DNA of 38,238 nt from Syntrophobacteraceae bacterium (GTDB lineage: Bacteria; Desulfobacterota; Syntrophobacteria; Syntrophobacterales; Syntrophobacteraceae). The notes below the pieces were generated by a model. It made no database searches and was not told where the DNA came from. It was given only the letters and a program-made list of their open reading frames with translations. Position 1 is the first letter of the stretch; each line of letters opens with the position of its first letter. The position numbers and the translations under genes were made by a program. Below are positions 2,370 through 36,324 of this stretch, in pieces. The stretch spans positions 1 to 38,238 of the forward strand of contig JARLHO010000172.1 of NCBI GenBank assembly GCA_031292215.1, written 5' to 3'.

Positions 2370-2690
2370 AATGACGCGCATGGAGGGGCAAGGCTCAATC
2401 ACCCCCCTTTTTTGCAACTTACAATTACCCACACATGCGCCCACCTATCTCCTTTTTGCAAAGTTGCAAATAAAGGGGCCGAGCGTGCCCAGCCGGTCCA
2501 TGCGCGTCATTGCAAGCGGCTGGAGAGTAAATCCCCCCAACCCCCCTTTGCAAAAAAGGGGGGTGATCGAGCCAAGCCCCTCGAAGCGAGTCATTGCCAA
2601 AGGAGGTAAGTGGGCGCATGTGTGGGTAATTGTAAGTTTTCAAAGGGGGGTTGGGGGGATTTCGAGTCCGTTCGTAGAGCGCGGAGTACC
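2370..2690. repeat. Dispersed GC-rich repeat block, composite with inverted copies
   Basis: Module A (2370-2416, running into a CCCCCCTTTTTTGCA end) recurs inverted at 2549-2595. Module B (2417-2458, containing ACAATTACCCACACATGCGC) recurs inverted at about 2598-2638. Between and after them lie C-modules of the type CCCCCCTTTG...GGGGGGTTGGGGGGATTT (2531-2560 and 2639-2662), followed by a tail GTTCGTAGAGCGCGGAGTA. The same modules occur at 16300-16420 and 32100-32233. Nearby open frames read through the repeat and are not genes. Confidence 0.85.
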
Positions 2691-2699
2691 AACGCATTG

Positions 2700-7430: not shown

Positions 7431-7674
7431 AAATCAGCCTGGCCCCGCAGGTTTTTCCGGGGAGAACGAAAAGGCGAATTTGGCAGGCTGGAACATTCCC
7501 AAGCCCGCAATCATACCCCCGCCCACCTATTGGCCCTTCGTTCTTTCCCTGGGAGCAACGCTGCTGGGTCTGGGGGTCCTGACATCAAACATTATTAGCG
7601 GTGCGGGCGCGGTGCTTTTCATTCTCGCCATCGCAAAGTGGGTAGGAGAGCTCTGCCGTGACAATCGAGGATAA
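7414..7674 (+). CDS. Small membrane protein, possible oxidase subunit IV-like
   Basis: 86 residues from GTG 7414, overlapping the end of ctaG by 17 bases and ending inside the Rieske start region. A hydrophilic N-terminus with a Pro-rich stretch (IPKPAIIPPPTYWP) is followed by two hydrophobic segments separated by a short turn. The size, W/P-rich entry and place between ctaG and the Rieske gene fit the small subunit IV-like proteins of bacterial oxidases. No residue motif proves it. Confidence 0.6.
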   Translation: MPNHSENQPGPAGFSGENEKANLAGWNIPKPAIIPPPTYWPFVLSLGATLLGLGVLTSNIISGAGAVLFILAIAKWVGELCRDNRG

Positions 7675-8188
7675 CGATAGCGCCGTTCGATCCGGCCAGG
7701 AAGACCCGGGCAGGCGCCGTCTCCTGGCTTTGCTCGGCGTGGCCGCCGGGTCTCTGATCGCGATTCTGGCCGGACTGCCGGTAATCGGCTACATCGTGCT
7801 GCCGGTTACCCGCAAGATGCATCGTCAGTGGGTGTCAGTGGGGCCGGTAGACCGCTTCCCTGTCGGCGATACGGTCCTGGTCTCCTTTGAAAACCCCTCG
7901 GCGACGCCATGGGCGGGTGTGTCGGGAAAGACCGGGGCCTGGGTACGCAGGGGCGGGGATAGCAACTTCATAGCCTTTGTTCTCAATTGTTCCCACCTCG
8001 GCTGCCCGGTGCGCTGGGAGGCCTCCCCCAAGCTGTTTATCTGTCCTTGCCACGGCAGCGTGTACTATGAGGACGGGACTGTCGCGGCGGGCCCCGCTCC
8101 CTTTCCTTTGCAGCGTTTTCAGGTCAGAGTGCGCGGTGGCAATGTCGAACTGCAAAGCCGTCCCATCCCCATAACAGAAGGTACGTAG
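7658..8188 (+). CDS. Rieske iron-sulfur protein of a bc-type complex
   Basis: 176 residues from GTG 7658, with TAGGAG just upstream. An N-terminal RRR-LLALLG segment and one hydrophobic anchor (about 22-50) resemble a Tat-type signal anchor. The [2Fe-2S] boxes are C111-S-H-L-G-C116 and C129-P-C-H-G-S, giving the two Cys and two His ligands plus the disulfide pair. The G-x-Y-Y pattern (GSVYYEDG) and the late PAPFPL loop are typical of b6f/bc Rieske proteins. It takes electrons from quinol at the Qo site of the cytochrome b encoded next and passes them to c haems. Confidence 0.95.
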   Translation: MTIEDNDSAVRSGQEDPGRRRLLALLGVAAGSLIAILAGLPVIGYIVLPVTRKMHRQWVSVGPVDRFPVGDTVLVSFENPSATPWAGVSGKTGAWVRRGGDSNFIAFVLNCSHLGCPVRWEASPKLFICPCHGSVYYEDGTVAAGPAPFPLQRFQVRVRGGNVELQSRPIPITEGT

Positions 8189-8201
8189 AGAGTATTAAGG
8201 G

Positions 8202-9623
8202 ATGAAACAGCGTAAAAAACTCTTTCGATGGCTAGACGATCGAACCGGCCTTGTCACACTGATTGAATCGATTGCCGCTCATCCGGCCGCGCCCGGCGTT
8301 AAATGGAAATACGTCTTCGGCAGTGCGGTCCTTACGGCTTTTATCCTGCAGGTGGTAACCGGCATCGGCTTGCTCACGACCTACGTCTCCTCGACGGGCG
8401 GGGCCTTTGAAAGCCTGCAGTATATCACCCGCAAGGCGCCGCTCGGCGCTTTCCTAAGAGGCATGCACTACTGGGGAGCCTCGATGATGGTCATCTTGAT
8501 CGTCACTCACCTGCTCAGGGTATTCCTCATGGGGAGCTTCAAGTTTCCACGGGAATTGAACTGGGTGACTGGAGTATTGCTGCTCGCGGCTACGTTGGCG
8601 ATGGCGTTCTGCGGTCAGATAATGCGCTGGGACCAAAACGCCGTATTCGGGTTGGTGGCGGCCGCAAAGATGGCCGGACACGTTCCGCTGATCGGCCCCT
8701 GGCTTGCTCGCTTCATAATAGGCGGGGATGTGGTGGGCTCCTACACCTTGAGCCGCATATTTGACATGCATGTCTTTGTCCTGCCGATCCTGCTCGTGTC
8801 CCTGATTGGCCTGCACGTGCACCTGGTGCTGCGAAACGGCGTATCGGAGCCACCCGTCCCGGGCCGCGGGGTGGACCCCGCGACGTACCGTTCCACTTAT
8901 CGCGACATGCTGCGAAGAGATGGCGTCCCTTTCTGGCCGACCGTCGTGTTGCGCGATTTCGTGTTCGCTCTCTGCGTGGTTCTCGTCGTGCTGCTGTTGG
9001 CCTGGGTGGTCGGTCCGGCCAGGCTTGACAATCCGCCCGATCCTTCGCTGATTAACGCCCAGCCCCGCCCGGACTGGTATTTCTGGTGGCTTTTCGCACT
9101 CCTTGCCCTCTTGCCGCACGCACTTGAGAATTATTTCATGGTCCTGACGCCCCTGGTGATCGGTCTGGTCCTCCTTTCGGTCCCGCTTGTGAGCAACCGC
9201 GGCGAGCGTCACCCGGGGCGAAGACCTCTGGCCGTGGCTGCCGTCGTGGTAATCCTTTCGGGAATCGCAGCCCTTACCGTGGCCGGATGGCATGAGGACT
9301 GGTCGCCTCGCGTCCATGCGCCTCCCCTTACCGCGAACCTCATAGGGGTATCTTCCGGTCCGGTATATGAAGGGGCAATGGTTTTTAACAAGATGGGTTG
9401 CCTTTTCTGCCATACCATAGAGGGCCATGGAGGAAAGAGGGGACCTGATCTGACTGAGATTGCCGACGAACTGACCCGCGATCAACTGACTCTTCGCATC
9501 ATGAACGGCGCCTACAACATGCCGGTGTTTGGCCGCATCCTTTCCACCGAGCAGACCGAAAACCTGCTGGACTTTCTTGCGACCCGGAAAAAGTCGGGCT
9601 TTGCGATAGGCAAAAAGCAGTAA
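8202..9623 (+). CDS. Cytochrome b with fused C-terminal cytochrome c (bc complex)
   Basis: 473 residues. The cytochrome b part has haem ligand pairs H89/H103 (13 apart) and H190/H205 (14 apart), so one pair has b6-like spacing. The Qo motif is PDWY (290-293), a known variant of PEWY. Further membrane helices follow, then a C-terminal cytochrome c domain with CLFCH (400-404) and a likely Met ligand in YNMPVFG. With the Rieske protein it would oxidise quinol, and the fused c haem can stand in for cytochrome c1 or f, since no separate gene for one is present. It starts 13 bases after the Rieske stop and ends the operon. Confidence 0.94.
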   Translation: MKQRKKLFRWLDDRTGLVTLIESIAAHPAAPGVKWKYVFGSAVLTAFILQVVTGIGLLTTYVSSTGGAFESLQYITRKAPLGAFLRGMHYWGASMMVILIVTHLLRVFLMGSFKFPRELNWVTGVLLLAATLAMAFCGQIMRWDQNAVFGLVAAAKMAGHVPLIGPWLARFIIGGDVVGSYTLSRIFDMHVFVLPILLVSLIGLHVHLVLRNGVSEPPVPGRGVDPATYRSTYRDMLRRDGVPFWPTVVLRDFVFALCVVLVVLLLAWVVGPARLDNPPDPSLINAQPRPDWYFWWLFALLALLPHALENYFMVLTPLVIGLVLLSVPLVSNRGERHPGRRPLAVAAVVVILSGIAALTVAGWHEDWSPRVHAPPLTANLIGVSSGPVYEGAMVFNKMGCLFCHTIEGHGGKRGPDLTEIADELTRDQLTLRIMNGAYNMPVFGRILSTEQTENLLDFLATRKKSGFAIGKKQ

Positions 9624-18517: not shown

Positions 18518-20953
18518 CTACGCAGCGGGAGCGCTTTTGGCCGCCCTTTTGGCCAACACCTCAACGGTCTTTGCGATTTCTTCCGAGCTCACCCCGCTCC
18601 GCAGCGTTTCCATCTCCTGCATCAACGCGGCAAACCGGATCCCCTCGGCTGCGCTGACCCATTCGAGGCGAAGCCTCTCCGGCCGGATTCCCAGAACTTC
18701 CATCTTCTTTCGAATCTTTTCGACCCGCTTTACCGTCCACTTGTTGGCATTTATGTAGTGGCAGTCGCCGATGTGGCAGCCGCTGACCAGTATTACGGGC
18801 GCCCCCTTCGCAAATCCCTCCCATATAAAGGACTCGTCCACTCGCCCCGAACACATCGTCCGCACCAATCTAACACTTGGCGGGTATTGAAGCCGCGATA
18901 CCCCGGCGTAATCGGCCCCCGCATAAGAGCACCAGTTGCATGCAAATACCAGGACCCTTTTTTCGGGGCCCTCGGAGAGCGCCTCGTCTACCTGCCCCAG
19001 GATCTGTTCGTCGGTGAAATGATTCATCGCAATCGCGTCAAACGGGCATTCGGCCGCGCATGTCCCACATCCCGCGCAGGCCGCCGGATTTACCGATGCC
19101 GGGATCCTGCGTTTTACATCGATTGAAATCGCTCCGTAGGGGCAGACCTCCACACACCTGTTGCACAATTTGCACTTTTCGGCCGCCACCTCGGCGGTAA
19201 TCGGCTCCGAGAGCATTTCCCCCCGGTGAAGCAGGCGGGCAACACGCCCTGCGGCAGCAGACCCCTGGGTAACCGATTCCTTAATATCTTTGGGACCTTC
19301 GGCGCATCCAGCAAAAAATATCCCTCGGGTGGCCGCGTCAACCGGTTGAAGCTTGGGATGGGCTTCCAGGAAAAAACCGTCGGACGTAAGCTGGAGTCCC
19401 AGCATTTCCTGGAGTTTCTTCGTCGTCCGGGACGGCTGCACCCCGACCGCCAGCACCAGCATGTCCAGGTCGTGGAAAACGATCTTTCCCATTGCGCCGT
19501 TATCGACTGCCACGCGCAACCCGTTATCCGCCGTTTCGACAAGACTTCCCGGTAAACCTCGTATGTACTGAACCCCAAGGCTTCGGCTCTTCTTGTACAG
19601 ATCTTCAAAACCTTTTCCAAAAGCGCGGATATCGATATAAAAGACCTTGATGTCTACTTCCGGATAGTGTTCCTTTAAAACCAGGGTGCTCTTTATCGTG
19701 TTCATGCAGCAGATATTTGAGCAGTAGGAACCGCCTTTTCTCTCCGAGCGCGAACCCACACACTGAATGAACCCGATCGATTTGGGGACTTTTCTATCCG
19801 AGGGCCGTATCAACTCGCCTCCGGTAGGGCCTCCCGCGCTTACCAACCGCTCGAATTCCAGGCTGCTCAGCACATTTTCATACCGCGTATAGCCGTACTC
19901 GTCGAGTTCTGTGGGGTCATAGGGCTCCATGCCGGTCGCAACCACGATGCCGCCCACCTTTTCGACCACTTCCTCATCCGACATGTGGAAGTTTATGCAC
20001 TGCTTCTCGCAGACTTCCACGCACTTGGCGCACACCACCGGGTTGTGGCCCAGGCACTCGTTGATGTTTATCACGTAGGCCGAAGGAACAGCCTGGGGAA
20101 ACGGCGAATAAATCGCCCGTCTCGAGGAAAGACCGGAGTCGAAATCGTCCGGACGCACCACCGGACACACCCGCGCGCATTCCCCGCAAGCCGTGCAATC
20201 TTTTTCCGATACGTACCGGGCCTTTTTTAAGATCTTTACTTCGAAATTGCCGACATACCCTTTTACATCGATTACTTCGGCGAGAGTAAGCAGCTTTATT
20301 CCTGGATGCCGACCGGCGTCCGTCATTTTAGGACCCAGAATTCAAATGGAACAGTCCATGGTGGGGAATGTCTTGTCGAGTCGCGCCATGTTGCCGCCAA
20401 TCGATGGACTCTTTTCCACCAGGACCACCTCGTAGCCGTTATCGGCGAGATCAAGCGCCGCCTGAATGCCGGCAATGCCTCCCCCGATCACCAGGGTTCG
20501 CTTGCTTAGCGGTATTTTTCTGCTTTCGAGCGGCTCAAGTCGAGCGGCCCGGGCCGCCGCCATTCGCACCAGATCCAGGGCTTTGTCCGTTGCCGCGCCC
20601 GGCTCGTGCAGATGCACCCAACTGCACTGCTCTCTCAGGTTGGCCATCTCGAGCAGGTAGGGGTTGAGGCCTGCGGCTTCCAACATCTTTTTAAAGGTGG
20701 GCTCATGTAACCTCGGAGAGCAGGAGGCGATCACGATGCGGTCAAGGCCAAGCTCGGCGATATCTTTCATGATGGCGTGCTGCCCGGGCTCTGAGCAGGC
20801 ATACTGGATGTTTCGCGCATGGACCACGTTTCCCATCTTGCCGCTTTCCGAGGCCACCTTCTCGCAATCCACTGTCCCCGCGATATTTAGCCCGCAATGG
20901 CAGACATAGACGCCGATTCGGGGTGTTTCACCGTCTGTCCCATTTTTTTTCAT
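18518..20953 (-). CDS. hdrA: Selenocysteine HdrA-MvhD fusion flavoprotein (TGA at 20342-20344 read as Sec)
   Basis: Two adjacent frames are one gene of 812 codons. The first 203 codons encode the HdrA N-terminal domain (VYVCHCGLNIAG, ASCSPRLHEPTF) and FAD motif GGGIAGIQAALDLADNG, and end FPTMDCSI. The in-frame TGA follows, then ILGPKMTDAG, restoring the HdrA signature DCSI-[C/U]-IL-PKM, so TGA sits at Sec204 in a CxxU pair with C201. Downstream come an inserted ferredoxin (CTACGECARVCP, near 253-264), the rest of the flavin domain, two C-terminal 4Fe-4S motifs (CKLCNRCVEVCP, CAGCGTCAAECP) and an MvhD domain (CNWCSYAGAD, CSG, GCHIGDCHY). HdrA carries the bifurcating FAD; MvhD connects it to an electron donor. 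A SECIS-like hairpin follows the TGA. Confidence 0.93.
20298..20341 (-). promoter_or_regulatory. SECIS-like hairpin directly after the hdrA TGA
   Basis: On the coding strand, ATTCTGG (20341-20335) can pair with CCAGGAAT (20305-20298) with one bulged G. Inside it, GCC-GGUC-GGC (20317-20308) makes a small apical helix with GGUC in the loop. The loop begins 27 bases after the UGA, within the usual bacterial SECIS range, and the GGUC recalls the SelB-binding loop of E. coli fdhF. Confidence 0.65.
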
Positions 20954-21071: not shown

Positions 21072-22652
21072 TTATTGCCACTCGATCGTTTTGGCCAGAA
21101 GGGAGGTCAAATCCATCATCTCTATGCGGATTTCATTTTCCAGCAAAGGGTCTTCCATCGCGCACCGCAGATGAATCTGGCATTTCGGGCATGCGGTTAC
21201 CAAAAGATTTGCCCCGGTCTCCTTGGCCTGCTTCAACCGGTTTACCTGCATCGCCTTGGAATAGGAGTCGCACCCGGTCCACGCGCAGTTTCCGCAGCAA
21301 AGAGAAGACGCCCCCCGGTCCCGCATTTCGGTAAAATCGGAGACCTTCAACCGCTTAAGAAGCCCGCGTGGCAATTCGCAGCCCGATTGTGTCCGGCTGA
21401 GCCTGCAGGGGTCCTGATAGGTGATCTTCCTGTTTAGTTTTTTAAATCCAACCGCTCCCTTCCCGATCTCGGCTTCGGCCAGCTCGAAAATATGGCGTAC
21501 CTTGAACCCGGTTTCTATTCCGTTTTCGGGATAGTCGCGGGAAAAGGCGCGGTAGCACTCGGGGCATGCCGTAACCAGTTCTTCGATTCCCATGGCCGAA
21601 ATCATCTCGACGTTTAACCGGGCAAGCTTTATGAAGTTTTCGCGGTCTCCGGACCACAGCAAGTCGTGGCCGCAGCACCTCTCGTTTTGCATGATCGCCG
21701 GGCGAATGTCGAAAAAGTTCATGAGCCTTAGAGCATCAAATAAAATATCGCTGGTATGGATCCCCAGGTGGTTTTTAAAAAATGTGTCGAAGTAGGGAGC
21801 GCATCCTCCAAAGAATAGGATTTTACTCTCCTGATCGGTCTGAATGTCTGAAGGGAGACCGCTCCAGTGTTTGACCGGGAGCCCGGGGGAAGTCATGGCG
21901 CGCATGAGTGAGTGGAAAAACCCTTCGTGGGCGTTAAATTTTCCGTTGGCAGACGACGCGCAGCGCATATCCTTTATGAAATCCGGAAAGCTTACCGCCG
22001 ACGGACACCGGTCGTAGCAAATACCGCACGTAAGACAGGACCAGATGTCTTCCCGAAGAGCCGGCGAGTCGATGTCTCCGGCCACTGCGGCGTTGGCGAT
22101 CGCCCGGGGGGAAAATTGCTTGCCCGACAACGCCACAGGACATGCCGAGGAACATTTGCCGCAGTCCTGGCAGGCGTAGATATTGTGCGCGCGGCTGATT
22201 GCGGCTGTCGATTGCGCCAGGAGTCCCGGCTCTTTGGCGCGGTTTGCGGCAACGATGACCGTTTTGCCGAGCTCGGCAATCTTCTCTCTAAACGTGGTCA
22301 AGTAGTCGAGAAGCTCCTGGTGCTGGTCGGGATGAAACGATCCAAATCCCAGCCGTTCATCTCCTAGCCCCAGCAGGTTGAGGATGCCCCTTGTGTCGTC
22401 TATGTTTCTCTGGGCGACGCGAGTCCCCAGCCCGTAGCGGCACGACCCCGGTTCGCACCCGAGAAGCACCACCCCGTCCGCCCCGGTTTCGAAAGCCTTA
22501 AACAGCAGCGACTTGGTGATTCGACCGCTGCACGGAATCCTTATCATGTGGATTTCCCGGGGCAGGGGCGCAAGAGCATCCTGGAGCGTCTGGTATGCCG
22601 CGTGCGGACTCCAGTTGCACAGAAAAAGAACTATCTTGAGATCGTCATTCAT
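21072..22652 (-). CDS. MvhD-HdrC-HdrB fusion protein
   Basis: 526 residues from ATG 22652, which overlaps the upstream stop as ATGA. Residues 1-130 are an MvhD-like domain (FLCNWSPHAA, PCSGRITK, GCEPGSCRYG); its first motif is CNWS instead of CNWC, so a usual [2Fe-2S] ligand is Ser15. Residues 155-220 are HdrC-like, with two 4Fe-4S motifs C161-x2-C-x2-C-x3-C171 and C206-x2-C-x2-C-x3-C216. The rest is HdrB-like with two CCG-type cysteine sets (ERCCGHDL...CPECYRAF, and CRLSRTQ...LCCGNC...CPKCQ) that bind noncubane clusters and reduce disulfides. It would receive electrons from HdrA. The substrate disulfide is unknown. Confidence 0.88.
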   Translation of the reverse strand: MNDDLKIVLFLCNWSPHAAYQTLQDALAPLPREIHMIRIPCSGRITKSLLFKAFETGADGVVLLGCEPGSCRYGLGTRVAQRNIDDTRGILNLLGLGDERLGFGSFHPDQHQELLDYLTTFREKIAELGKTVIVAANRAKEPGLLAQSTAAISRAHNIYACQDCGKCSSACPVALSGKQFSPRAIANAAVAGDIDSPALREDIWSCLTCGICYDRCPSAVSFPDFIKDMRCASSANGKFNAHEGFFHSLMRAMTSPGLPVKHWSGLPSDIQTDQESKILFFGGCAPYFDTFFKNHLGIHTSDILFDALRLMNFFDIRPAIMQNERCCGHDLLWSGDRENFIKLARLNVEMISAMGIEELVTACPECYRAFSRDYPENGIETGFKVRHIFELAEAEIGKGAVGFKKLNRKITYQDPCRLSRTQSGCELPRGLLKRLKVSDFTEMRDRGASSLCCGNCAWTGCDSYSKAMQVNRLKQAKETGANLLVTACPKCQIHLRCAMEDPLLENEIRIEMMDLTSLLAKTIEWQ

Positions 22653-25600
22653 TTGTGGACTATTTCTTCTATCGCCTGTTCGAGAAAACGCCGGTCGCGA
22701 TAAGGACTGTCCGCGGCGCCGGAGGGACAAATCGAAATGCAGTTGCCGCAGCCCTTGCAAAGGGCTTCGTCGACAGCCGCATACCCGGCCGGCTGAAGAC
22801 TGGCGTGAAAGCTGATGGCCCTGTAGGGGCAGGCCTTTACGCAACGGCCGCATCCCCTGCAGAGGTCCCGATCTATGGAAACCGTGTATCCCTTGTTCTG
22901 CCTCGGGCCGCGCGGCATGATCGTTGCCGCCAGCATTGCCGCCGCCGTGCCTTTTAGCCGGTCGGAGACATTTATGCCGGGCGGACTGGCCAAAAGAAGC
23001 CCGGGTATGGAGGTCGCTGCGGGAAGGAAAAACGGTATCCCAAGGCGGCCGCTTGTCTGCATGGTGTATTCGAACTCGTGGGGCGGCATGTCCGGATGAG
23101 GCATATAGGCCAGGCTCTTCCTCGATCGTTCGCCCAGTATTACCGCTCCGGCGGTAAAGACCTGGTGGGTGCCGTCCTCCATGCTCACTATTACCTGAAA
23201 GTCTCCCACCGAGCCCTTAAGCGATCGGGCGCAAGATCCCGGAAAGGCAAGAACGTTGGGGTAGGCGGGAGCAGCCGAAAGAGGCCTGTCGAGCCCCCCG
23301 AACAAAAAGACTTCCATGCCCATCTGCCCCAGGGTGAGAGCGCTTCTTAGCGCCGCTTCGGATTCTCCGATAACCGCTGTCGTAAAGTTGTACTTGCGAG
23401 CCGGAGGCGGGAGGGACTTAAGGCGTGCCGCGCGCTGGATCGACCGTCGCAAAAGCCCTTCAAAGCGGCTTATGGCGAGAGTTCGCTCACTCCCCAAAAG
23501 GGCCAGCGCCTCGCCTCGCAGGTTGCAGGTCTCGGCCATGGCCCGGGGAATGCCGGTCCCATTAAAGAGGGCGGCCTTCAGCCTGCTTCGCTGGTCGGTG
23601 CACGCGCCGCATATAAGGTCCTGCGGGCAGCACACGCAAGATGCCAGAACGAACCGGGTAAGCCCCTTTTCTCGAATCGTTTTCACTATGGATGCCGCGC
23701 CTTCCCGCGTGCAGGCCGAAGGAATCGACTCGGCGTACTCCACCGGCAAATTTTCGGGAAGATAGGACAGCATCCTGTCCAGTTCGGGGTCCCAGCCCAG
23801 CGAGTCGTTGCACCTGCATACGAAAACTCCGATTCGAAGCTCGGATTCGAGCCGAGGCTCAGGCGGGGAAAACAAAATCCCTCCCCCCTTCATGCGCGCT
23901 GTGCCGTCGCCTAGCAAAAGAGCGGTTTCCGCCGCTGCGGCAAACCCTCGCAGCATCATGGCGTAGACGTCAGGTTGGCTGGCCTTCGAGCTGTAGGTGC
24001 GGATGACGTCCTCGCCTTTTACGCTCGGAGCCGATGCCGGGTCGGTGAGAATGACCACCCCGGCATGCTCGATCTCTTCTGTGCACTCGTCGGCGTGAAA
24101 AACCGCCCCGGCTGCCGAACAGGCTTCCACGCACTCGCCGCACTCGGAGCACACCCCGCACTGGAGGCACCGGGACGCCTCGGAGCGGGCCTGCTCTTCG
24201 GAAAACCCCAGTTCGACCTCGGTGGTGAGTTGGAGCCGCGAAGCCGGATGGCGCTCAGACATCGCTATCCGCCCAACAGAGGCAATCTCCGGGGAAATCT
24301 CGGGATAGTCGAGATCATCGCGCCGCTTAAACAAAACAACCTCTTCTGCTCCAGGGACTTCTCCCGCCAAATACCGGTGAACTCCCCTTGCCGCCGCCCG
24401 ACCGGATGCCATGGCGGTCACAACCGTCGAAGGACCGCTTGTCGCATCTCCTGCGCCAAAGACCTTCGCAGACCGAGTTCTTCCGTTTTCAAAAACCCTT
24501 ATCAGTCCGGCAGAAGTTGCAAACTCTTCTCCATAACCGCTAAAATCTGCCGGGTTTCCCGTCTGGCCAATGGCTACGACGGCACGCTCAAATTCAAATT
24601 CGACAGGATTTGCCCCCTTGACCATAACGGGCCAGGGGATACCATTGGCATCCGGCGGGCCGGGAACGGTTGGAACGAAACGAATGGAGTTAAGCTTTCC
24701 GTTTGCCCCGACGAACTCGGCGGCCTTAAGGCCGGTCTTTATCGCTATTCCTTCTTTTGCTGCCGCTTGGACCTCGTGCGCATCGGCTGGGATCAACTCC
24801 TCGGGAAACCAGGAGATCAAGGTGACTTCCGCGCCAAGTCGCGCCAGGGTGCGGGCTGCTTCAAACGCCGAATTGCCATCTCCTAAAACCGCCGTTTTCC
24901 CGGCGGCCGACTTTATTTCTCCCCGGTGTACCGCGCATAGATACGAGAGGCATCCAAAAACGTTTTCCAGCTCTTCTCCGGGCGCCCCGACTTTTCGATC
25001 TTCCCATAATCCCGTTGCCAGAACGACTGCTCGAAACTCCTCGCCGTTCTCGGGTTTAAACTCGGTTCCCAGGTGGAATTGGACCCCAAGCTTATGGAGA
25101 TCGTCGATTTCCCGGTCGAGAACAGCTCTCGGGAGACGGTGCGGTCCTATTGCGTAACGCAAAAGTCCACCCGGCGCTTTTTCTTTTTCAAAAACCGTGA
25201 CTCGATAACCCAAACGGACAAGATCGGAGGCAGCGGCAAGGCCCGCGGGTCCGGAACCTATCACCGCAATTTTTTCGGCCCCGGTCCTTGCCGCAGCATG
25301 GGTAAACGGCCGAGGCGATGCGCTGTCGGCCAGAAATCTCTTGATGTCTCGTATCGCAAGGGGCTGGTCTACTCCGCTCCTGCGGCATGCCGCCTCGCAG
25401 GGGTGGGTGCAGATCCTGCCGCATATGCCCGGCAAGACATTGTCTTTTCGGATCAACTCGAGCGCTTCAACGTATCTGCCCGCCCGCGCAAGGGCCATGT
25501 AGCCCTGGACGTTTACCCCGAGAGGACAATTGGCCTTGCAAAGAGGGGTCCTGCGCTTGTCGATGACCGGTCTTCCCGGAAGAGCATGCCGTCCGCCGTA

Positions 25601-25999
25601 GCGTAGCGCCTTTTTGCCGTCCGGGCCAATCGCTGGACAGACCTGCCAACACAGGCCGCAAAGCGTGCACTTCTCACTATCTATGTAGGTGGGCGCCAAC
25701 GTATAGCGTATCGAAAATCCCTGGGGAGTGTGTTTGATCGATTTGACCGAAGCCGGAAGAATGAGCCTTGCCGAGGGATTTCTCATTATTCGTAGAAGCC
25801 CGGGGCGCTGGGCGTAGTTAAAGCCAACGCCCGTGTCCATTTTCCATGCAGGGGAGGCGAGCTTCTCGTTTAGATCGCCGGCCTCATCGATTAGCGTGAC
25901 GGGTATCCCCATCTCGCCCAGCTTGTTTGCCGCAGCGATTCCTGCGGGCGTAGCTCCTATAATGCACACCTTTTGAAGGCGTTCCCTGGGGTCTTTCAT
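22649..25999 (-). CDS. Giant GltD/HdrA-like iron-sulfur flavoprotein
   Basis: 1116 residues from ATG 25999; an extended frame overlaps korC and is not used. Order: a partial FAD-type fold (IIGATPAGIAAANKLGEMG); a ferredoxin motif CTLCGLCWQVCP (111-122); a GltD/NfnB-type Fe-S helical domain (CKANCPLGVNVQGYM, CGRICTHPCEAAC, 154-205); an FAD site GSGPAGLAAASDL (248) and NAD(P)H site LGDGNSAFEAARTL (372); a Cys-rich CLQCGVCSECGECVEAC (611-627); an HdrA N-domain-like part IGVFVCRCNDSLG (723); and two C-terminal 4Fe-4S motifs (about 1047-1092). It resembles an HdrA into which a pyridine-nucleotide module of the NfnB/glutamate-synthase type is inserted. A role passing electrons between NAD(P)H, ferredoxin and Hdr is likely. 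Confidence 0.85.
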   Translation of the reverse strand: MKDPRERLQKVCIIGATPAGIAAANKLGEMGIPVTLIDEAGDLNEKLASPAWKMDTGVGFNYAQRPGLLRIMRNPSARLILPASVKSIKHTPQGFSIRYTLAPTYIDSEKCTLCGLCWQVCPAIGPDGKKALRYGGRHALPGRPVIDKRRTPLCKANCPLGVNVQGYMALARAGRYVEALELIRKDNVLPGICGRICTHPCEAACRRSGVDQPLAIRDIKRFLADSASPRPFTHAAARTGAEKIAVIGSGPAGLAAASDLVRLGYRVTVFEKEKAPGGLLRYAIGPHRLPRAVLDREIDDLHKLGVQFHLGTEFKPENGEEFRAVVLATGLWEDRKVGAPGEELENVFGCLSYLCAVHRGEIKSAAGKTAVLGDGNSAFEAARTLARLGAEVTLISWFPEELIPADAHEVQAAAKEGIAIKTGLKAAEFVGANGKLNSIRFVPTVPGPPDANGIPWPVMVKGANPVEFEFERAVVAIGQTGNPADFSGYGEEFATSAGLIRVFENGRTRSAKVFGAGDATSGPSTVVTAMASGRAAARGVHRYLAGEVPGAEEVVLFKRRDDLDYPEISPEIASVGRIAMSERHPASRLQLTTEVELGFSEEQARSEASRCLQCGVCSECGECVEACSAAGAVFHADECTEEIEHAGVVILTDPASAPSVKGEDVIRTYSSKASQPDVYAMMLRGFAAAAETALLLGDGTARMKGGGILFSPPEPRLESELRIGVFVCRCNDSLGWDPELDRMLSYLPENLPVEYAESIPSACTREGAASIVKTIREKGLTRFVLASCVCCPQDLICGACTDQRSRLKAALFNGTGIPRAMAETCNLRGEALALLGSERTLAISRFEGLLRRSIQRAARLKSLPPPARKYNFTTAVIGESEAALRSALTLGQMGMEVFLFGGLDRPLSAAPAYPNVLAFPGSCARSLKGSVGDFQVIVSMEDGTHQVFTAGAVILGERSRKSLAYMPHPDMPPHEFEYTMQTSGRLGIPFFLPAATSIPGLLLASPPGINVSDRLKGTAAAMLAATIMPRGPRQNKGYTVSIDRDLCRGCGRCVKACPYRAISFHASLQPAGYAAVDEALCKGCGNCISICPSGAADSPYRDRRFLEQAIEEIVHK

Positions 26000-26003
26000 T
26001 CCA

Positions 26004-26588
26004 TTAGCCCTGTTCTTTGTTTTTATTGCCCGCAGCCTTTTTCGTCCGGGCCTTGAGCATCGCCTGCCCCAAATCGTAGCCCTTGGTAAAGGCCGCAATA
26101 TTGGTTTTCTCCGTCCCCTTTGGCACCGAATCAGCCACCGAGGAGAGCATTCCTTTAAGAGACACGGCCCCGGTAACCGATGTCACAAAACCGAGCATCA
26201 CGATATTGGCCATCATTTTTCTGCCAAGTTCCTCGGCCATCCGGGTCGCGGGAACCGGGAAAACATCCCCCGATGCGCCCTCCCAGGAACGCACCATGTC
26301 CTGGTCAACTATCAGCGTCCCTTCGGCTCTTAGTAAATGATGGTACTTCTCATATCCCGTCTGCGACATGCATACCAGAATATCCGCCGCGCGCACGTAA
26401 GGGTAATGAATCGGCTTGTCCGATATGACCAACTGGGCGCTGCACGCGCCCCCGCGCGCCTCCGGACCGTAGGACTGCGTAAAGCTGCTCTCCAGATGGT
26501 CTTCGATGCAGGCCGCCATGCCGAGCACCTGCCCCGCAAGCACTATCCCCTGTCCACCAAGGCCGGTTATCAAAATCTCTTTTCTCAA
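26004..26588 (-). CDS. korC: 2-oxoacid:ferredoxin oxidoreductase gamma subunit (KorC)
   Basis: 194 residues. Starts with TTG 26588, supported by GGAG six bases upstream. The family opening EILITGLGGQGIVLAGQVLG, then SFTQSYGPEARGGACSAQLV, IHYPYVRAADILVCMSQ and MANIVMLGF, identify the gamma domain that helps bind CoA in 2-oxoacid oxidoreductases. The Lys/Asn-rich tail (KKAAGNKNKEQG) is extra. It follows korB by 12 bases and precedes the giant flavoprotein by four, so these are surely co-transcribed. Confidence 0.93.
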   Translation of the reverse strand: MRKEILITGLGGQGIVLAGQVLGMAACIEDHLESSFTQSYGPEARGGACSAQLVISDKPIHYPYVRAADILVCMSQTGYEKYHHLLRAEGTLIVDQDMVRSWEGASGDVFPVPATRMAEELGRKMMANIVMLGFVTSVTGAVSLKGMLSSVADSVPKGTEKTNIAAFTKGYDLGQAMLKARTKKAAGNKNKEQG

Positions 26589-26600: not shown

Positions 26601-27422
26601 TTACTCACCACACACTGCCTTATAGTTTTCAGCATACGTCGGCCTGTCGTATTCGACAAACTTGCCAAGAGTTATCCCATGCTCTAGATCGAGGATCGTT
26701 TCGGCGGGGTTTATCCCGTTTTTCACCATTGCCTTTTCCTGGTAAATCTTTAGCATATCGGTTGCTTTTAGCCTGTTTTTGCGGCCGTAACCGGTAGGGC
26801 AGGGGGCAAGGACCTCGATAAAGGAAAAACCGGTGCGAGTCAGGGCCTCGGTTATCGACTGGGTGAGGTCGCGCGTGTGGAGCATTGTCCAGCGGGCGAT
26901 ATATGTCGCCCCGCTTGCGTATGCCAGAAGCGGCAGGTTAAATGGCGATTCGGGGTTGCCGCGCGGTGTGGTCGATGTCTTGGCCAGATGCGGGGTGGTA
27001 GCCGCGGCCTGTCCACCCGTCATGCCGTAATTGAGATTGTTTACGCAAATCACCGTAAGATCCATGTTGCGTCGTGCCGCGTGGATGAAGTGATTGCCCC
27101 CGATTGCAAACAGATCCCCGTCGCCGCTGAAAACGACCACCGTAAGCTCGGGGTTGGCGAGCTTCATGCCGGTAGCAAACGGAATCGCCCTGCCGTGCGT
27201 GGTGTGATAGGAATCGAGATTGACATAGCCGGCCCCCCTTCCCGAGCAGCCTATCCCCGAGACCACTGCGGTATTTGCCGGGTCTTTTCCAGTGGAGCTG
27301 ATCGCGATAAGAGAGGAAGAAAAAACCGTGCCGATTCCGCATCCCGGGCACCAGATGTGCGGTATACGGTCCGTGCGAAGAAGTCCGTCCAGAGGATGCT
27401 TTGGAGCCGTGCTGCCGTTCAT
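26601..27422 (-). CDS. korB: 2-oxoacid:ferredoxin oxidoreductase beta subunit (KorB)
   Basis: 273 residues from ATG 27422, with AGGA six bases upstream. It carries the N-terminal HIWCPGCGIGTV, the GIGCSGRGAGY segment, the thiamine-diphosphate motif GDGDLFAIGGNHFIHAARRN with the closing NNLNYGMTGGQ, and ATYIARW. With KorA it decarboxylates a 2-oxoacid (probably 2-oxoglutarate, from the subunit layout) to the acyl-CoA and reduces ferredoxin. Substrate choice is inferred from gene order, not residues. Confidence 0.95.
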   Translation of the reverse strand: MNGSTAPKHPLDGLLRTDRIPHIWCPGCGIGTVFSSSLIAISSTGKDPANTAVVSGIGCSGRGAGYVNLDSYHTTHGRAIPFATGMKLANPELTVVVFSGDGDLFAIGGNHFIHAARRNMDLTVICVNNLNYGMTGGQAAATTPHLAKTSTTPRGNPESPFNLPLLAYASGATYIARWTMLHTRDLTQSITEALTRTGFSFIEVLAPCPTGYGRKNRLKATDMLKIYQEKAMVKNGINPAETILDLEHGITLGKFVEYDRPTYAENYKAVCGE

Positions 27423-27492: not shown

Positions 27493-28638
27493 CTAGGTCT
27501 GTTCCAGAATTTTTTTGACTATATCCTCGGGCGTTATCACCGCCCCTCCGGCGTGGCCGACAAGTAGGCAGGGCGCCCTGCCTTCGGCGCACCTCTGCAC
27601 TTCGAGGTGAATCTGCCCAAGGTTTAATTCGACCGTAATGAACCTCTTGACCCGCTTTGCAAGCTCCCGTACAATCTGTTCGGGGAAAGGCCAAACCGTT
27701 ATAAGTCGCAGAAGTCCCGCTTTTACGCCGCGCTCCCGCGCCTCATCGACCGCCGCAAGACTGCTTCTCGAACTGATCCCGTATGACACCAGGGCTATGT
27801 CGGCATCCTCTAGCCGATACCTTTCCACCTGGATTATCTTGTCGAGGTTTCTTTGAATTTTTCCCGTTATCCGCTCGATCATCTCGGCCTGCGCATCGGC
27901 GGTCATTGCGGGGTAGCCCCTCTCGTCATGAGTAAGCCCCGTAAAGTGCACCATGTAGCCCTCGCCGGCGTGGGCCATCGGCGCCACCCCGTTTGCCCCG
28001 GGATGAAAAGGCTTGAAGCGGTCCTTTCTTCCCTTGGCGCGCGGCCTGGACTGCAGGCTGATCTTCGAGGACTGCGGGATGATCACCCTCTCGGCTAAAT
28101 GGCCCACGATCTCGTCGGCCATTATCAGCACCGGGATCCGGTAGGTCTCGCTGAGGTTAAAGGCCGTGATGGTCTGGTAGAAAATCTCCTGGGGCGAGCA
28201 GGGAGAAAGCGCTATGATCTCGTAGTGACCGTGCGATCCCCATCTGGCCTGCATCATGTCGCCCTGGGCGCCAAGAGTCGGAAGGCCCGTCGAAGGCCCC
28301 GCCCGCTGCACGTTTACCAGAACGCACGGGGTCTCCATCGCAATCCCCAGCCCGATGTTTTCCATCATCAGACTAAACCCCGGCCCGGAGGTAGCCGTCA
28401 TGCTCTTTACTCCGGCACACGATGCGCCGATGATCGCCGCCATCGCGCTTATTTCATCTTCCATCTGGATGAAGACCCCACCGACTCCGGGAAGCCTCTT
28501 GGACATGTGTTCGGCTATCTCGGTGGCAGGAGTTATGGGGTAGCCCGCAAAAAAGCGGCACCCGGCGGCCAGCGCGCCTTCCGCGCATGCCACGTCCCCA
28601 TTTAAAAAATGCTCTCCGGTGAGAACGGCAGGTTCCAT
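27493..28638 (-). CDS. korA: 2-oxoacid:ferredoxin oxidoreductase alpha subunit (KorA)
   Basis: 381 residues from ATG 28638; a longer frame overlaps korD and is rejected. Motifs are GDVACAEGALAAGCRFFAGY followed by PITPATEIAEHMS, QMEDEISAMAAIIGASCAG, TSGPGFSLMMENIGL, NVQRAGPSTGLPT, and in the C-terminal domain VSYGISSRSSLAAVDEARE and VWPFPEQIVRELA. This is the pyrimidine-domain subunit of the KorABCD type. It lies eight bases after korD. Confidence 0.95.
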   Translation of the reverse strand: MEPAVLTGEHFLNGDVACAEGALAAGCRFFAGYPITPATEIAEHMSKRLPGVGGVFIQMEDEISAMAAIIGASCAGVKSMTATSGPGFSLMMENIGLGIAMETPCVLVNVQRAGPSTGLPTLGAQGDMMQARWGSHGHYEIIALSPCSPQEIFYQTITAFNLSETYRIPVLIMADEIVGHLAERVIIPQSSKISLQSRPRAKGRKDRFKPFHPGANGVAPMAHAGEGYMVHFTGLTHDERGYPAMTADAQAEMIERITGKIQRNLDKIIQVERYRLEDADIALVSYGISSRSSLAAVDEARERGVKAGLLRLITVWPFPEQIVRELAKRVKRFITVELNLGQIHLEVQRCAEGRAPCLLVGHAGGAVITPEDIVKKILEQT

Positions 28639-28646
28639 AAAAAGAC

Positions 28647-28955
28647 TCACTTGACAGGATGCTCGGAAATTGATTGCGCCGCAGCCTCCACCGAGTAGAT
28701 GGCGAAGTCGGGGCAAACAGCCTCGCAGTAGTGACAATTTACGCACAGATCGGGCTGCTTTGCCACCGGGGGATGATACCCCCTGTTGTTAAAGCGGCTG
28801 GAAGCCTCCAGTACGCCCCTCGGGCAATAGTCGATGCAGTAGCCGCATCCCTTGCACCGTTCCTCTATTATATGGACCACTCCCCGGGTGACTACGATCT
28901 GTTCGGTATCGAGGGGAACGCGCCAGAATTTCATCTCTATAACCTCTGCAAGCAT
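28647..28955 (-). CDS. korD: 2-oxoacid:ferredoxin oxidoreductase delta subunit, ferredoxin (KorD)
   Basis: 102 residues from ATG 28955; ATG 28934, with AGAGG eight bases upstream, is the better-supported start and would give 95 residues. Two 4Fe-4S motifs are present, CKGCGYCIDYCP and CVNCHYCEAVCP, separated by FNNRGYHPPV, a pattern normal for KorD/VorD. It carries electrons out of KorAB. It is first in the operon, 270 bases from the neighbouring glycosyltransferase gene. Confidence 0.93.
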   Translation of the reverse strand: MLAEVIEMKFWRVPLDTEQIVVTRGVVHIIEERCKGCGYCIDYCPRGVLEASSRFNNRGYHPPVAKQPDLCVNCHYCEAVCPDFAIYSVEAAAQSISEHPVK

Positions 28956-32448: not shown

Positions 32449-32886
32449 CTAAAACTTTCCCCTCGCGCGAAAAAGTCCTGGAACAACGAGGCGCCCAAGC
32501 TCCCGCAACCGTTGGCTCATTTCCTGTACAACCTCAACGTAGAGGTGTTGTTCGGCGTGAGCGATCCACTCCAGCCGAAAACGCTCTTCTTCCACGCCTA
32601 GGCCGACCAGCAGGTTCCTTAGCAGGTAAGCTCGCCGCAAGGCCTTTATATTTCCCGATATATAGTGGCAGTTGCCGAGGGGACAGCCGATTACGACCAC
32701 TCCATCGGCCCCGCTCGCAAAGGCCTTCATTACATAACCCGGATCAACCATTCCCGAGCACAACACGCGCAGGACTTTTATCTGCGCCTTTCGGGGAAGG
32801 GCTGTCCGCGAGGCCGAATCCACCGCCCCCAACGGGCACCAGTTGCATACGAACACCATGATCTTGGGTTCAAAGTCTTTGCCCAT
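32449..32886 (-). CDS. mvhD: Stand-alone MvhD-like electron-transfer subunit
   Basis: 145 residues. It has the MvhD/FlpD cysteine pattern: VFVCNWCPLGAVD, VLCSGMVDPGYVMKAFASGA and GCPLGNCHYISGN, which bind a [2Fe-2S] cluster. Family proteins link HdrA to a hydrogenase, formate dehydrogenase or other donor. It follows the tandem-HdrA gene by 80 bases on the same strand and is presumably its partner. The second motif has CPLGAVD instead of the common CSYAGAD. Confidence 0.88.
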   Translation of the reverse strand: MGKDFEPKIMVFVCNWCPLGAVDSASRTALPRKAQIKVLRVLCSGMVDPGYVMKAFASGADGVVVIGCPLGNCHYISGNIKALRRAYLLRNLLVGLGVEEERFRLEWIAHAEQHLYVEVVQEMSQRLRELGRLVVPGLFRARGKF

Positions 32887-32966
32887 TTCGTTCCATGTCC
32901 TTTCCCGTTTTTGCCTCGCAGGGCAGGGCGAAATTTATGGAGATCGGGAATTCGACAAATTTCGCT

Positions 32967-35900
32967 TCAGTCTGCCAGCATGGCTTCAATCCAACCAATC
33001 ATCCGACCCGCCGTGTAGTTGCCAACGCTTATGGCGCCAACGGGACACGCGGCGGCGCAGACCCCGCATCCCTGGCACATCATTTCGTCGATACGGGAGG
33101 CTTTGCGGTTGTCATCAAAAGAAATCGCCTGGAATTCGCATAGGTCGACGCACGTCCTGCATCCCATGCATGACTGCGGGTCGACCGAAGCAAGGGTGGC
33201 GTCGCCGGCGCTAAGTTGCGCTTTGGAAAGGAACCTGAGGCTGCGCAAGGCGCTCGCTTGCGCCATCGCAATGGATTCGGTGATGTTTCGGGGCGAATGG
33301 GCGAGCCCGCACCCAAAGACCCCCCTTCGGGAAAGATCGACCGGGCGCCATTTGGATTCTTCTTCCTGGTAAAAACCGTTTTTGTCGAGCTTAAGACCGA
33401 GTACCCGCGCTGGTTCGCCGCAATTGTGAGAAACAACCCCCGTGCTCAGGACCAGCATGTCCGCCCTTATTTGGAATTCTCGGCCAAGGATCGGGTCTAC
33501 GGCGGTTAAAACGGGCGCGCCGTTTTCCACGACAACCCCCGGTTTTCGCTCGACCCCGTAGGGGATGAAGACAACGCCCTTTTGGCGCGCCAGGGTGTAA
33601 TACGTCTCAATAAATCCATAGGACATAAGATCTCTATAGAAAATGAATACATCTCCCCCGGGGTTTTTCTCCTTGAGATACAGAGCGTTTTTGAGCGCTG
33701 TGGCGCAGCAGATCCTGCTGCAATAAGGACGGGATTTCTCGCGTGAATCGACACATTGCACCATGGCGACCGTCCCGAGCTCTTCTGCGACTATCGCCCC
33801 CTCGTCTAGTTTTCTTTCGAATTCGCCCTGGGTTACGATGCGTTCGCTTTGCCCGAAACAGTAGGATTTTGTCGCTGCCTCCCTGCCGCCCGTTGCAACG
33901 ATGGTCACCCCATGGCCAATCCGCTCGACTGTTGCGTCTTGGTTCATAACGGTTGTGGCAAACCGTCCCACCTGCCCCTCGAACTTTACTACCCGCGCAT
34001 TCTTGTGAATCCGAATATTTCGGTGATGAATAACTGCTGCGATCGTTTCTGCCAGTAGCCTTTGAGGCTGCCCCCCGTCGAGAGTCCGGCGCAGGTTGAG
34101 CAGATTTCCCCCAAGCTCGGAGGTCTTCTCCACCACGTGCACCGGGAAACCGTGGTTTGCTATGGCCAAAGCGGCTGTTAACCCCGCGATTCCACCACCG
34201 ATCACCAAAGCCCGGGGCTCGATGGCTGCGGAGGGTGTCCGCCAGGGGAGCGTACCGCTAAGCTTGTCGACCCCCAAGGAGATCCTGGAAACAATGTCGC
34301 CTCTTATCCGTAGTGCATCCCGGTCGCCTTCGGGCTCAAGGCGAGGGCGCAGGTCGATTACTTCGACCTCACTCGCCTCCAGGCCAAGGTTTTGCGCAAA
34401 TTGGCGCAGCCTCCCGGCAAAAATATTCGGCACGCAGGAACAAATCAGCAACCGATTGCATTCGCTCCCGGCCACAGAGTCCTTTAGCTCGCTTGAGCCT
34501 TCAAAAGGATCCGGGTCCCTTACTATCCGGACCGTCCCAACAGAACTCATTGGAGCGGTTTGCGCCACAATATCGTCTAGGTCCGCTGCCTGCCACATGG
34601 CCTCGCCGCAGGCCCAGATCGCCACATAGACTCTGGGGGCCGCCCGGTCGCGATTTCCACCGGCAGCGGGCGCCACCTGTATTTCGGAAATCCCCTTACC
34701 CCTGGATGCAAGCAGAAGGGATGCCGCAAGGGATGCGCCATTGGCGGCGATAACCGATTCGGAGATATCGCGAAGACCCGCGAAGGAGCCGCTGGCGAAA
34801 ATACCCTCCCTCGAACTCCTGGTCAGGGAAAAAGGTTGAGCCTTCACAAACCCCTGGGGGGTTAGGGAGATTCCCGTAATTTCCGCCAGGGCGCGCGCAT
34901 CGGGTGCGGGCCTCTGGCCCACGGCAAGGACCACCAGGTCGAAAGTCTCGCTAACCATCCCGCCCCCCTGGTCCACGTAGGTAAGGTTTAAATCTCCCCG
35001 GGGACTCGATGGTTCGACGGAATGAATGCGACTGCGCACAAAGCGCACCCCGTGCTCCCTTTGGGCTCTATCCCTGTAGCTTTGAAAGTTTTTGCCGTAA
35101 GTGCGCATGTCCATATAGAAAATTGCCGCATCAAGTTCTTGGCCGCAAAACTCCTTGGCAAGAACGGATTGCTTTATGCTGTACATGCAACAGGCAGAAG
35201 AGCAAAAATCGGCATCTACCTTATGATCTCTTGAGCCAACGCACTGAAGCCAGGCCACCCTCTCGGCCTCTTTGCCATCGCCTGGCCGAAGCAGTCGCCC
35301 CTGGTTGGGACCGCTCGGACTCATTAACCGTTCGAACTCGAGACTGGTCACGACATTGGGGTGGTGGTAACAATAATTGCCCTCGGCTGCTGGGCTGTAC
35401 ATCCCGAATCCCGCAGCCAGGATCACCGCCCCGACCCCAATTTGTCGCTCACTGGCCTCCATCGAAAGATCGACGGCCTTTGTCGGGCATGACTTTTGGC
35501 ATGCGCCGCAGCGCGTACAGGCGTCAAGGTCCACCACGTAGTTGTTGGGAAGGTCGTAGGGGAGCGGAAGATAGATGGCTTTTCGCATCGTCAGGCCATC
35601 GTTTAGCCGCTTGGGGACGACCACCGGACAGACATCGGCGCAGCGGCCGCACCCGATGCAGCGGTCTCGATCCACCATGGTGGGTTTTCGCCGCAGCGTG
35701 GCGGTGAACCTCCCCGGCTCACCCTCCAGGCCAATGAGTTCGGTTGCGCGCATAACCTCCATATTGTCGTGAGAGACTCCCCTTCGCAGGCAATACTGAC
35801 CCGGGTCGTCCCGTTCAAAGAGCGGCAGCATCCGGCATATCCCGCAGGAGTCGTCGGGAAACTGGTGATCGAGTCGAACGAGTGTTCCCCCGGTGTAGTT

Positions 35901-36011
35901 GGCCTTGTCGATAAGTTTTACGCTGTACCCCATGATGGCCAAGTCGAGTGCTGAGCGAATACCGCTGATCCCCGCCCCCACCACCAGGATGGTGTCCAAA
36001 ATTTCTTGCAT
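32967..36011 (-). CDS. hdrA: Tandem double-HdrA protein
   Basis: 1014 residues from ATG 36011 (GAGG eight bases upstream); a TTG at 36062 is possible but poorer. The first HdrA unit has FAD motif VGAGISGIRSALDLAIMG and a Cys motif SCGIC (C56, C59) in place of CSI[C/U]; ferredoxin motifs C118-x2-C-x2-C-x3-C128 and C165-x2-C-x2-C-x3-C175; and the LQCVGSRD...FCSSACCM segment. The linker resembles a worn HdrA N-domain. A second unit has GGGIAGLTAALAIANHG and MVQCVDSRE...YCSRICC, but RTLDGGQPQRLLAE where the CSIC motif should be. Two 4Fe-4S motifs (CMGCRTCVDLCE, CQGCGVCAAACP) end the protein. Confidence 0.88.
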   Translation of the reverse strand: MQEILDTILVVGAGISGIRSALDLAIMGYSVKLIDKANYTGGTLVRLDHQFPDDSCGICRMLPLFERDDPGQYCLRRGVSHDNMEVMRATELIGLEGEPGRFTATLRRKPTMVDRDRCIGCGRCADVCPVVVPKRLNDGLTMRKAIYLPLPYDLPNNYVVDLDACTRCGACQKSCPTKAVDLSMEASERQIGVGAVILAAGFGMYSPAAEGNYCYHHPNVVTSLEFERLMSPSGPNQGRLLRPGDGKEAERVAWLQCVGSRDHKVDADFCSSACCMYSIKQSVLAKEFCGQELDAAIFYMDMRTYGKNFQSYRDRAQREHGVRFVRSRIHSVEPSSPRGDLNLTYVDQGGGMVSETFDLVVLAVGQRPAPDARALAEITGISLTPQGFVKAQPFSLTRSSREGIFASGSFAGLRDISESVIAANGASLAASLLLASRGKGISEIQVAPAAGGNRDRAAPRVYVAIWACGEAMWQAADLDDIVAQTAPMSSVGTVRIVRDPDPFEGSSELKDSVAGSECNRLLICSCVPNIFAGRLRQFAQNLGLEASEVEVIDLRPRLEPEGDRDALRIRGDIVSRISLGVDKLSGTLPWRTPSAAIEPRALVIGGGIAGLTAALAIANHGFPVHVVEKTSELGGNLLNLRRTLDGGQPQRLLAETIAAVIHHRNIRIHKNARVVKFEGQVGRFATTVMNQDATVERIGHGVTIVATGGREAATKSYCFGQSERIVTQGEFERKLDEGAIVAEELGTVAMVQCVDSREKSRPYCSRICCATALKNALYLKEKNPGGDVFIFYRDLMSYGFIETYYTLARQKGVVFIPYGVERKPGVVVENGAPVLTAVDPILGREFQIRADMLVLSTGVVSHNCGEPARVLGLKLDKNGFYQEEESKWRPVDLSRRGVFGCGLAHSPRNITESIAMAQASALRSLRFLSKAQLSAGDATLASVDPQSCMGCRTCVDLCEFQAISFDDNRKASRIDEMMCQGCGVCAAACPVGAISVGNYTAGRMIGWIEAMLAD

Positions 36012-36324
36012 GCCAAAACCTCGCGATTCCCGGTCCGTTGCGTGCGATGCATTGTTTTTCAATAAATATTTTACAATAACCGTGCCAAAATGTTTGACAG
36101 CCTCAGAAGCTTATATGCAAGCCGTTTGGCGGGAACCATCCATCTTTTTTGCCGGTGTTTGGAAGCCCCCCTTGGGGCGTTTCGCCCCAAGGGGGGCCTC
36201 CATGTTGCCGCTTCGAGCCGCCGCTATCGGGATAAGTGAATGAATGTCACTAATTCGTCACTGTTTTTTCATCCTTGAGAAATAGCTCAAAATTGTCGAA
36301 TATATCCTGCGAAGGAGAAACGAA
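36012..36324. other. Divergent intergenic region
   Basis: It lies between the leftward hdrA and the rightward histidine kinase gene and must hold both promoters. It contains a perfect 15-base hairpin (listed separately) and a small inverted repeat TTGAG (36275-36279)/CTCAA (36286-36290) near the kinase start. No gene is visible. Confidence 0.5.
36165..36197. promoter_or_regulatory. Perfect 15-bp hairpin between divergent genes
   Basis: GCCCCCCTTGGGGCG (36165-36179), loop TTT, CGCCCCAAGGGGGGC (36183-36197). It has no T-run in either direction and is not at a gene's 3' end, so it is more likely an operator, a leader structure or a transposition relic than a terminator. Confidence 0.6.

Follow-up and report, generated by a model that had tools for sequence, protein, structure and literature searches.

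Flavin-based electron bifurcation by heterodisulfide reductase (Hdr) is a main energy-saving route of anaerobes, and the known HdrA complexes take H2, formate, F420H2 or NADH as input and pass low-potential electrons out to ferredoxin. Both HdrA proteins with an inserted GltD module and tandem HdrA proteins are already known. In particular, the HdrA of the Moorella thermoacetica methylene-tetrahydrofolate reductase complex (1487 residues) follows a tandem plan with GltD and carries Glu and Lys in both thioredoxin reductase (TrxR) domains (PMC9430772), and the type III HdrA of methane-metabolising archaea (nine archaeal sequences) carries GltD at the HdrA inserted ferredoxin and is otherwise closest to a single type I HdrA (PMC12054007). 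Here we describe GltD-HdrA, encoded in a 38,238-nucleotide stretch of Syntrophobacteraceae DNA (contig JARLHO010000172.1, positions 1 to 38,238; hereafter the window). Judged by sequence comparison, GltD-HdrA is a fusion of two reduced HdrA copies in tandem, with the GltD module within the ferredoxin of the first copy.

The gltD-hdrA gene is an open reading frame (ORF) with an ATG start and 1116 codons plus a stop. ORF translation, domain searches and homologues confirm the ORF and the domain order proposed in an initial annotation of the window. The features are given below with window coordinates, and conservation refers to 41 homologues spanning subfamilies 1 and 2, which are defined further on.

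22649..25999, minus strand: gltD-hdrA, two reduced HdrA copies in tandem plus an inserted GltD module, 1116 residues (ORF, domain searches, BLASTP, homologue alignment, structure model)
25691..25978, minus strand: HdrA copy 1, FAD-side half of the TrxR domain, residues 8-103, GxGxxG worn to GATPAG/GANPAG
25562..25690, minus strand: split HdrA inserted ferredoxin, first half, residues 104-146, Cys 111/114/117/121 invariant in the 41 homologues
24152..25558, minus strand: inserted GltD/DsrL/StnC-type FAD, iron-sulfur (Fe-S) and NAD(P)H module, residues 148-616, including Cys 611/614 (domain searches, fold comparison, tree)
25340..25342, minus strand: Lys220, at the position of StnC Lys170, which ligates the FAD-proximal cluster; NfnB has Glu there (alignment)
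24785..24898, minus strand: NAD(P)H site GDGNxA...SWF, residues 368-405, replacing GGGNxA...YRR (alignment; PMC7596348)
24092..24151, minus strand: split HdrA ferredoxin, second half, residues 617-636, Cys 617/620/623/627 (homologue and paralogue comparison)
23903..24091, minus strand: HdrA copy 1, end of TrxR, residues 637-699 (comparison with class B paralogues, introduced below)
23405..23839, minus strand: HdrA copy 2, N-terminal Fe-S domain (N-domain), residues 721-865 (BLASTP, paralogue comparison, profile search)
23588..23638, minus strand: additional invariant motif CxCC-x5-CxxC-x-DQR, residues 788-804 of the N-domain (homologue alignment)
22895..23404, minus strand: HdrA copy 2, TrxR remnant, residues 866-1035, GxGxxG lost (paralogue comparison)
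22652..22894, minus strand: HdrA copy 2, C-terminal 2[4Fe-4S] ferredoxin, residues 1036-1116 (domain searches, BLASTP, profile search)

Domain searches of GltD-HdrA recover Pyr_redox_2, the GltD/DPD-type Fe-S domain Fer4_20, and C-terminal Fer4 pairs. BLASTP comparison with the HdrA of the window pairs residues 9-127 with HdrA 155-273, the region from residue 722 with HdrA from residue 16 (the N-domain and the beginning of TrxR), and residues 1016-1113 with HdrA 567-663, while a profile of residues 715-1116 matches solved HdrA chains with E-values of 1e-49 to 1e-56. These searches bear out the proposal of a GltD-type module within an HdrA-like frame and place the insertion point between the cluster motifs 111-121 and 617-627, inside the HdrA inserted ferredoxin. 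The segment previously described as Cys-rich (residues 611-627) is present and has a more specific make-up, namely Cys 611 and 614, which look like displaced GltD/DsrL cluster ligands, and the second half of the split ferredoxin. The second worn TrxR domain, at about residues 866-1035, was absent from the earlier domain list. The full-length structure model has a mean pLDDT of 79.7 and a pTM of 0.63, and a separate model of residues 715-1116 has a mean pLDDT of 75.8 and a pTM of 0.58; given these pTM values, the relative placement of domains is left out of the evidence. The 715-1116 model matches HdrA chains with E-values of 1e-16 to 1e-17 and the next fold at 6e-5, demonstrating an HdrA-like fold outside the GltD core, whose absence would have spoken against the initial annotation. 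A further list of PDB matches to this model spans, for the most part, its residues 154-320.

Unreduced GltD-inserted paralogues in the same and related genomes fall into two forms. Class A paralogues (1133-1155 residues, two copies in the source genome) comprise a single HdrA with an inserted GltD, the single-copy plan of archaeal type III HdrA, which shares with GltD-HdrA the position of GltD at the HdrA inserted ferredoxin (PMC12054007). Class B paralogues (about 1500 residues, often with an in-frame TGA) comprise HdrA copy 1 with GltD, followed by HdrA copy 2 with an N-domain and a C-terminal ferredoxin and without an inserted ferredoxin. The domain order of GltD-HdrA is the class B order. 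Specifically, its copy 1 is shorter than that of class B by about 220 residues, comprising the NAD-like half of TrxR, the bifurcation Glu/Lys region and the CVGSR...CC cluster, while its copy 2 is shorter by about 175 residues, comprising the NAD-like half of TrxR, the lysine region and the CVGSR...CC cluster.

Because the class B paralogues show the same order in unreduced form, the N-domain near the C-terminus of GltD-HdrA is the second HdrA copy's own. It was the position of this domain that had suggested a circular permutation of one HdrA around the GltD insert, but TrxR remnants lie both before and after the N-domain, each in native order, and the unreduced relatives of about 1500 residues contain two HdrA copies in the same order. 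The Moorella HdrA, which class B matches, likewise has two copies in this order, the second without an inserted ferredoxin (PMC9430772). We therefore reject circular permutation, which the two TrxR remnants and the unreduced tandem relatives make extremely improbable. GltD-HdrA differs from the Moorella protein, whose partner is MetVF (PMC9430772), in having both TrxR domains cut down and a 2-oxoacid:acceptor oxidoreductase (KOR) as partner, and from type III HdrA in being bacterial, tandem with TrxR losses, and encoded in a KOR operon. It has the N-domain and C-terminal ferredoxin of GltD-inserted (type III/Moorella-type) HdrA and lacks the complete TrxR with FAD motif and bifurcation Glu/Lys that characterises these proteins; against NCBIfam HdrA2 (NF040770) it scores 159.7 bits, under the curated cut-off of 1100.

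Relatives have homologues that match GltD-HdrA in length and domain order at 50-83% identity, and a frameshift or assembly artefact as the origin of the window gene was rejected. The survey covered genomes of one phylum: 59 of 60 related genomes have a match at 1e-60 (paralogues counted in), and a phylum-wide sample yields a match at 1e-125 or better in 32 of 297 genomes, 20 of them belonging to subfamily 1 (at least 50% identity) and 12 to subfamily 2 (34-37% identity). A contig scan reaching close relatives found metagenome-assembled genomes labelled Syntrophobacteraceae, Syntrophobacterales and Deltaproteobacteria as the nearest named relatives. One orthologue (genome G003, contig C9, 5047-8266, plus strand; L131) is broken by a frameshift that separates the GltD part from HdrA copy 2 and may be a sequencing error or a real fission.

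The flavin sites and the Fe-S ligands of GltD-HdrA have fared differently. As to which FAD sites keep GxGxxG, a check proposed with the initial annotation, the GltD site is intact and both HdrA sites are worn: the GltD motif GSGPAG is retained, with G248 and G250-G253 invariant in the homologues, the Rossmann motif of HdrA copy 1 is mostly GATPAG or GANPAG in orthologues, and HdrA copy 2 has GESEAA at the corresponding position. The Fe-S ligand cysteines are invariant, C193 excepted. Furthermore, four extra N-domain cysteines, C790, C791, C797 and C800, are invariant and form part of the CxCC-x5-CxxC-x-DQR motif, which is confined to gltD-hdrA among the own-genome and paralogue loci scanned, and they could hold an extra cluster.

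The GltD module is closest in fold to the GltD domain of NfnABC (9bov_A, Z 41.7, root-mean-square deviation 2.2 over 468 residues), followed by StnC of Sporomusa ovata (8oh5_C, Z 40.5, deviation 2.3 over 468), with NfnL (5jca_L, Z 33.8) and glutamate synthase GltD (Z 28.9, compared in the structural ranking only and left out of the tree) ranking lower. Lys220, present in 41/41 homologues, aligns with StnC Lys170, which coordinates the FAD-proximal cluster of a protein whose flavin has lost bifurcation (PMC10482914). GltD-HdrA thereby combines the Lys and the closest fold of StnC-like modules and lacks the Glu that marks the FAD-proximal cluster of bifurcating NfnB and is also present in NfnL. 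The tree, which includes five PDB references taken from printed alignments and is midpoint-rooted with several weak backbone forks, places the NfnB group apart with 100/100 support. The GltD part, for which the initial annotation proposed a tree against NfnB and GltD, groups by fold, alignment and tree with StnC, NfnABC and the GltD-inserted HdrA rather than with NfnB. An NfnB-like origin of the module is supported by neither fold ranking, Lys220 nor tree; NfnB (NfnL) shares the common FAD/NAD(P)H fold and differs by its Glu and its separate clade. StnC and NfnABC provide a non-bifurcating NAD(P)H entry into a separate bifurcating module, to which we liken GltD-HdrA, but they are fused to NuoG/FdhF-like parts and carry YRR (NADP(H)), whereas GltD-HdrA has HdrA parts and SWF. 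The best NCBIfam match of the module is DsrL (PRK12771; 403.8 bits over residues 147-637, not reaching the family cut-off of 516), yet unlike DsrL, GltD-HdrA is not found with dsrAB.

The position of NfnB YRR is SWF in every subfamily-1 member except one (G018, YRR), and YRR or GIE/AIE in subfamily 2; the window protein, with SWF, lacks the YRR of NADP(H)-specific GltD modules. This change, GGGN...YRR to GDGN...SWF, would be expected if the subfamily-1 module had become an FAD/Fe-S relay that binds no pyridine nucleotide and carries electrons between KOR and the HdrB disulfide site. We regard such a relay as very unlikely: GxGxxA and the Rossmann fold of the NAD(P)H site are kept, subfamily 2 has YRR or GIE/AIE in the same operon, G018 has a YRR module instead of SWF, and the absence of YRR does not keep DsrL enzymes from using NAD(H) (PMC7596348). 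In DsrL, YRR accompanies NADP(H) and triplets starting with S or T prefer NAD(H) (PMC7596348). Because SWF replaces YRR, and DsrL without YRR uses NAD(H), NAD(H) is the likely cofactor of the window GltD-HdrA.

In G018 (contig C378, gene 124-3483, minus strand; L063), a class B module with YRR has apparently replaced the subfamily-1 GltD module. The module nests within class B (tree support 96/86), and 1443 bp of it are 84.6% identical to the class B gene of G018 itself, while both flanks remain subfamily 1. From the sequence, the cofactor module seems to have been exchanged in nature, although a chimeric contig would give the same picture.

GltD-HdrA is encoded in the operon korDABC - gltD-hdrA - mvhD-hdrCB - hdrA(Sec)-mvhD, where Sec denotes selenocysteine. 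korC ends a few bases upstream of the gltD-hdrA start, and the ATG of the downstream gene overlaps the gltD-hdrA stop codon. The partner genes are as follows.

28647..28955, minus strand: korD-like ferredoxin subunit (best NCBIfam match OGOR_delta, under its cut-off)
27493..28641, minus strand: korA, alpha subunit of the 2-oxoacid:acceptor oxidoreductase (above the PRK08659 cut-off, as the sole one in the genome)
26601..27422, minus strand: korB (family search; under the curated equivalog cut-off)
26004..26588, minus strand: korC (over the PorC_KorC subfamily cut-off)
21072..22652, minus strand: mvhD-hdrC-hdrB fusion, about 526 residues
18518..20953, minus strand: hdrA-mvhD, intact HdrA2-type, with in-frame TGA at 20342-20344 (FAD, Glu/Lys and cluster motifs present)

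Counting loci where the contig extends far enough, korA, korB and korC lie upstream of gltD-hdrA in 39/39, MvhD/HdrCB downstream in 39/39 (as separate genes in subfamily 2), and an hdrA with in-frame TGA (DCSI*ILGP) after these in 38/38. The last HdrA of the operon passes the HdrA2 cut-off (1189.8 bits against 1100) and retains GGGIAG, EFERL, CVGSR and RAFGKG. Its TGA reads as Sec208 in DCSI[U]ILGP, and SelB is over its cut-off in the source genome. Sec in HdrA is already known (PMC1794560). In a profile alignment, Sec208 aligns with Cys197 of methanogen HdrA, a trans ligand of the N-terminal cluster of the partner HdrA (PMC9012536), which would make the ligand across the HdrA interface a selenolate. 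Judged from their sequences alone, ORFs near the operon look isocitrate-dehydrogenase-like at locus L120 and fumarase-like at locus L112.

The operon KOR likely acts on 2-oxoglutarate, because its KorA is the only protein over the KOR cut-off in a genome that also has an aconitase and an NADP isocitrate dehydrogenase above their respective cut-offs and a citrate synthase above the Pfam one. The potentials of the couples (2-oxoacid near -500 mV, NAD(H) at -320 mV, disulfide higher) fit a coupling with NADH in the middle.

We give a slight preference to a reading in which GltD-HdrA would be a flavin and Fe-S wire that connects NAD(H) with a complex of KOR and Hdr. We infer that KorABCD, MvhD-HdrCB, the intact HdrA2-type selenoprotein and GltD-HdrA would assemble into one multi-subunit complex, in which the HdrA remnants would hold the wire on the Hdr/KOR assembly. 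The GltD FAD would exchange hydride with NAD(H) and split it into single electrons, which would pass from the GltD clusters through the split HdrA ferredoxin to the remaining HdrA clusters. Bifurcation or confurcation, if any, would occur at the FAD of the intact HdrA, and the reduced GltD-HdrA itself would do none, a point held with the same slight preference as part of the whole explanation. 2-Oxoglutarate would be the likeliest substrate, NADH the mid-potential couple, and HdrB would act on a thiol/disulfide pair; the electrons could run in one direction or the other. Consistent with this reading, the GltD FAD motif and nearly all Fe-S cysteines are kept, the HdrA FAD motifs are worn, the bifurcation lysine regions are deleted, Lys220 matches non-bifurcating StnC Lys170, and the operon is conserved and includes an intact HdrA2-type partner. 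The bridge between pyridine nucleotides and Hdr proposed at the outset is, from the GltD module and the operon, a fair inference.

Several points weigh against this reading. KorB and KorD fall under curated equivalog cut-offs, which weakens the 2-oxoglutarate assignment; the exact triplets for which DsrL was measured do not include SWF; YRR occurs in part of subfamily 2 and in G018, so that NAD(H) use is not general; HdrA copy 1, with GATPAG, may retain a residual FAD; and co-occurrence in an operon is no proof of a single complex. The StnC kind of the GltD module and the reduced HdrA copies, without known bifurcation residues, would also suit a simple NAD-linked KOR, in which 2-oxoacid electrons pass via GltD-HdrA straight to NAD+, the Hdr branch serves as an additional exit, and there is no bifurcation or confurcation. 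We consider this unlikely, as the operon always includes HdrCB and an intact HdrA with bifurcation residues, beyond the needs of a wire. Going further than the wire itself, we tentatively suggest, at rather less than even confidence, that KorABCD, GltD-HdrA, MvhD-HdrCB and Sec-HdrA may be one confurcating or bifurcating enzyme in which KOR replaces free ferredoxin. Such an enzyme would reduce NAD+ by oxidising 2-oxoglutarate together with a thiol pair or, run backwards, would use NADH to drive reductive carboxylation. Within it, one HdrA paralogue would be a dedicated NAD(H) wire beside a true bifurcating HdrA.

Elsewhere in the window, a second Hdr locus (32449-36062, minus strand) encodes a tandem HdrA of 1031 residues and a separate MvhD. 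Positions 3435-9623 (plus strand) encode cytochrome c oxidase subunits with a cytochrome c domain, CtaG and cytochrome b, genes that are unexpected in a Syntrophobacteraceae-related genome if the organism is a strict anaerobe, and positions 263-973 (plus strand) encode a DUF166 protein.

The reduced GltD-HdrA form and its constant partners appear undescribed so far; in the open-access literature we found no description of the reduced HdrA form, the extra cysteine motif, the constant KOR-Hdr operon or the SWF site. The operon is intact in distant members of the phylum, which points to a tricarboxylic acid cycle-type enzyme, KOR, coupled to an Hdr machine, and to an HdrA paralogue without flavin sites of its own that has been turned into a wire. 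The range from unreduced tandem HdrA through the reduced subfamilies 2 and 1 to the gene with a swapped module forms a natural series, in which the roles of the HdrA flavins could be told apart from that of the NADH module.
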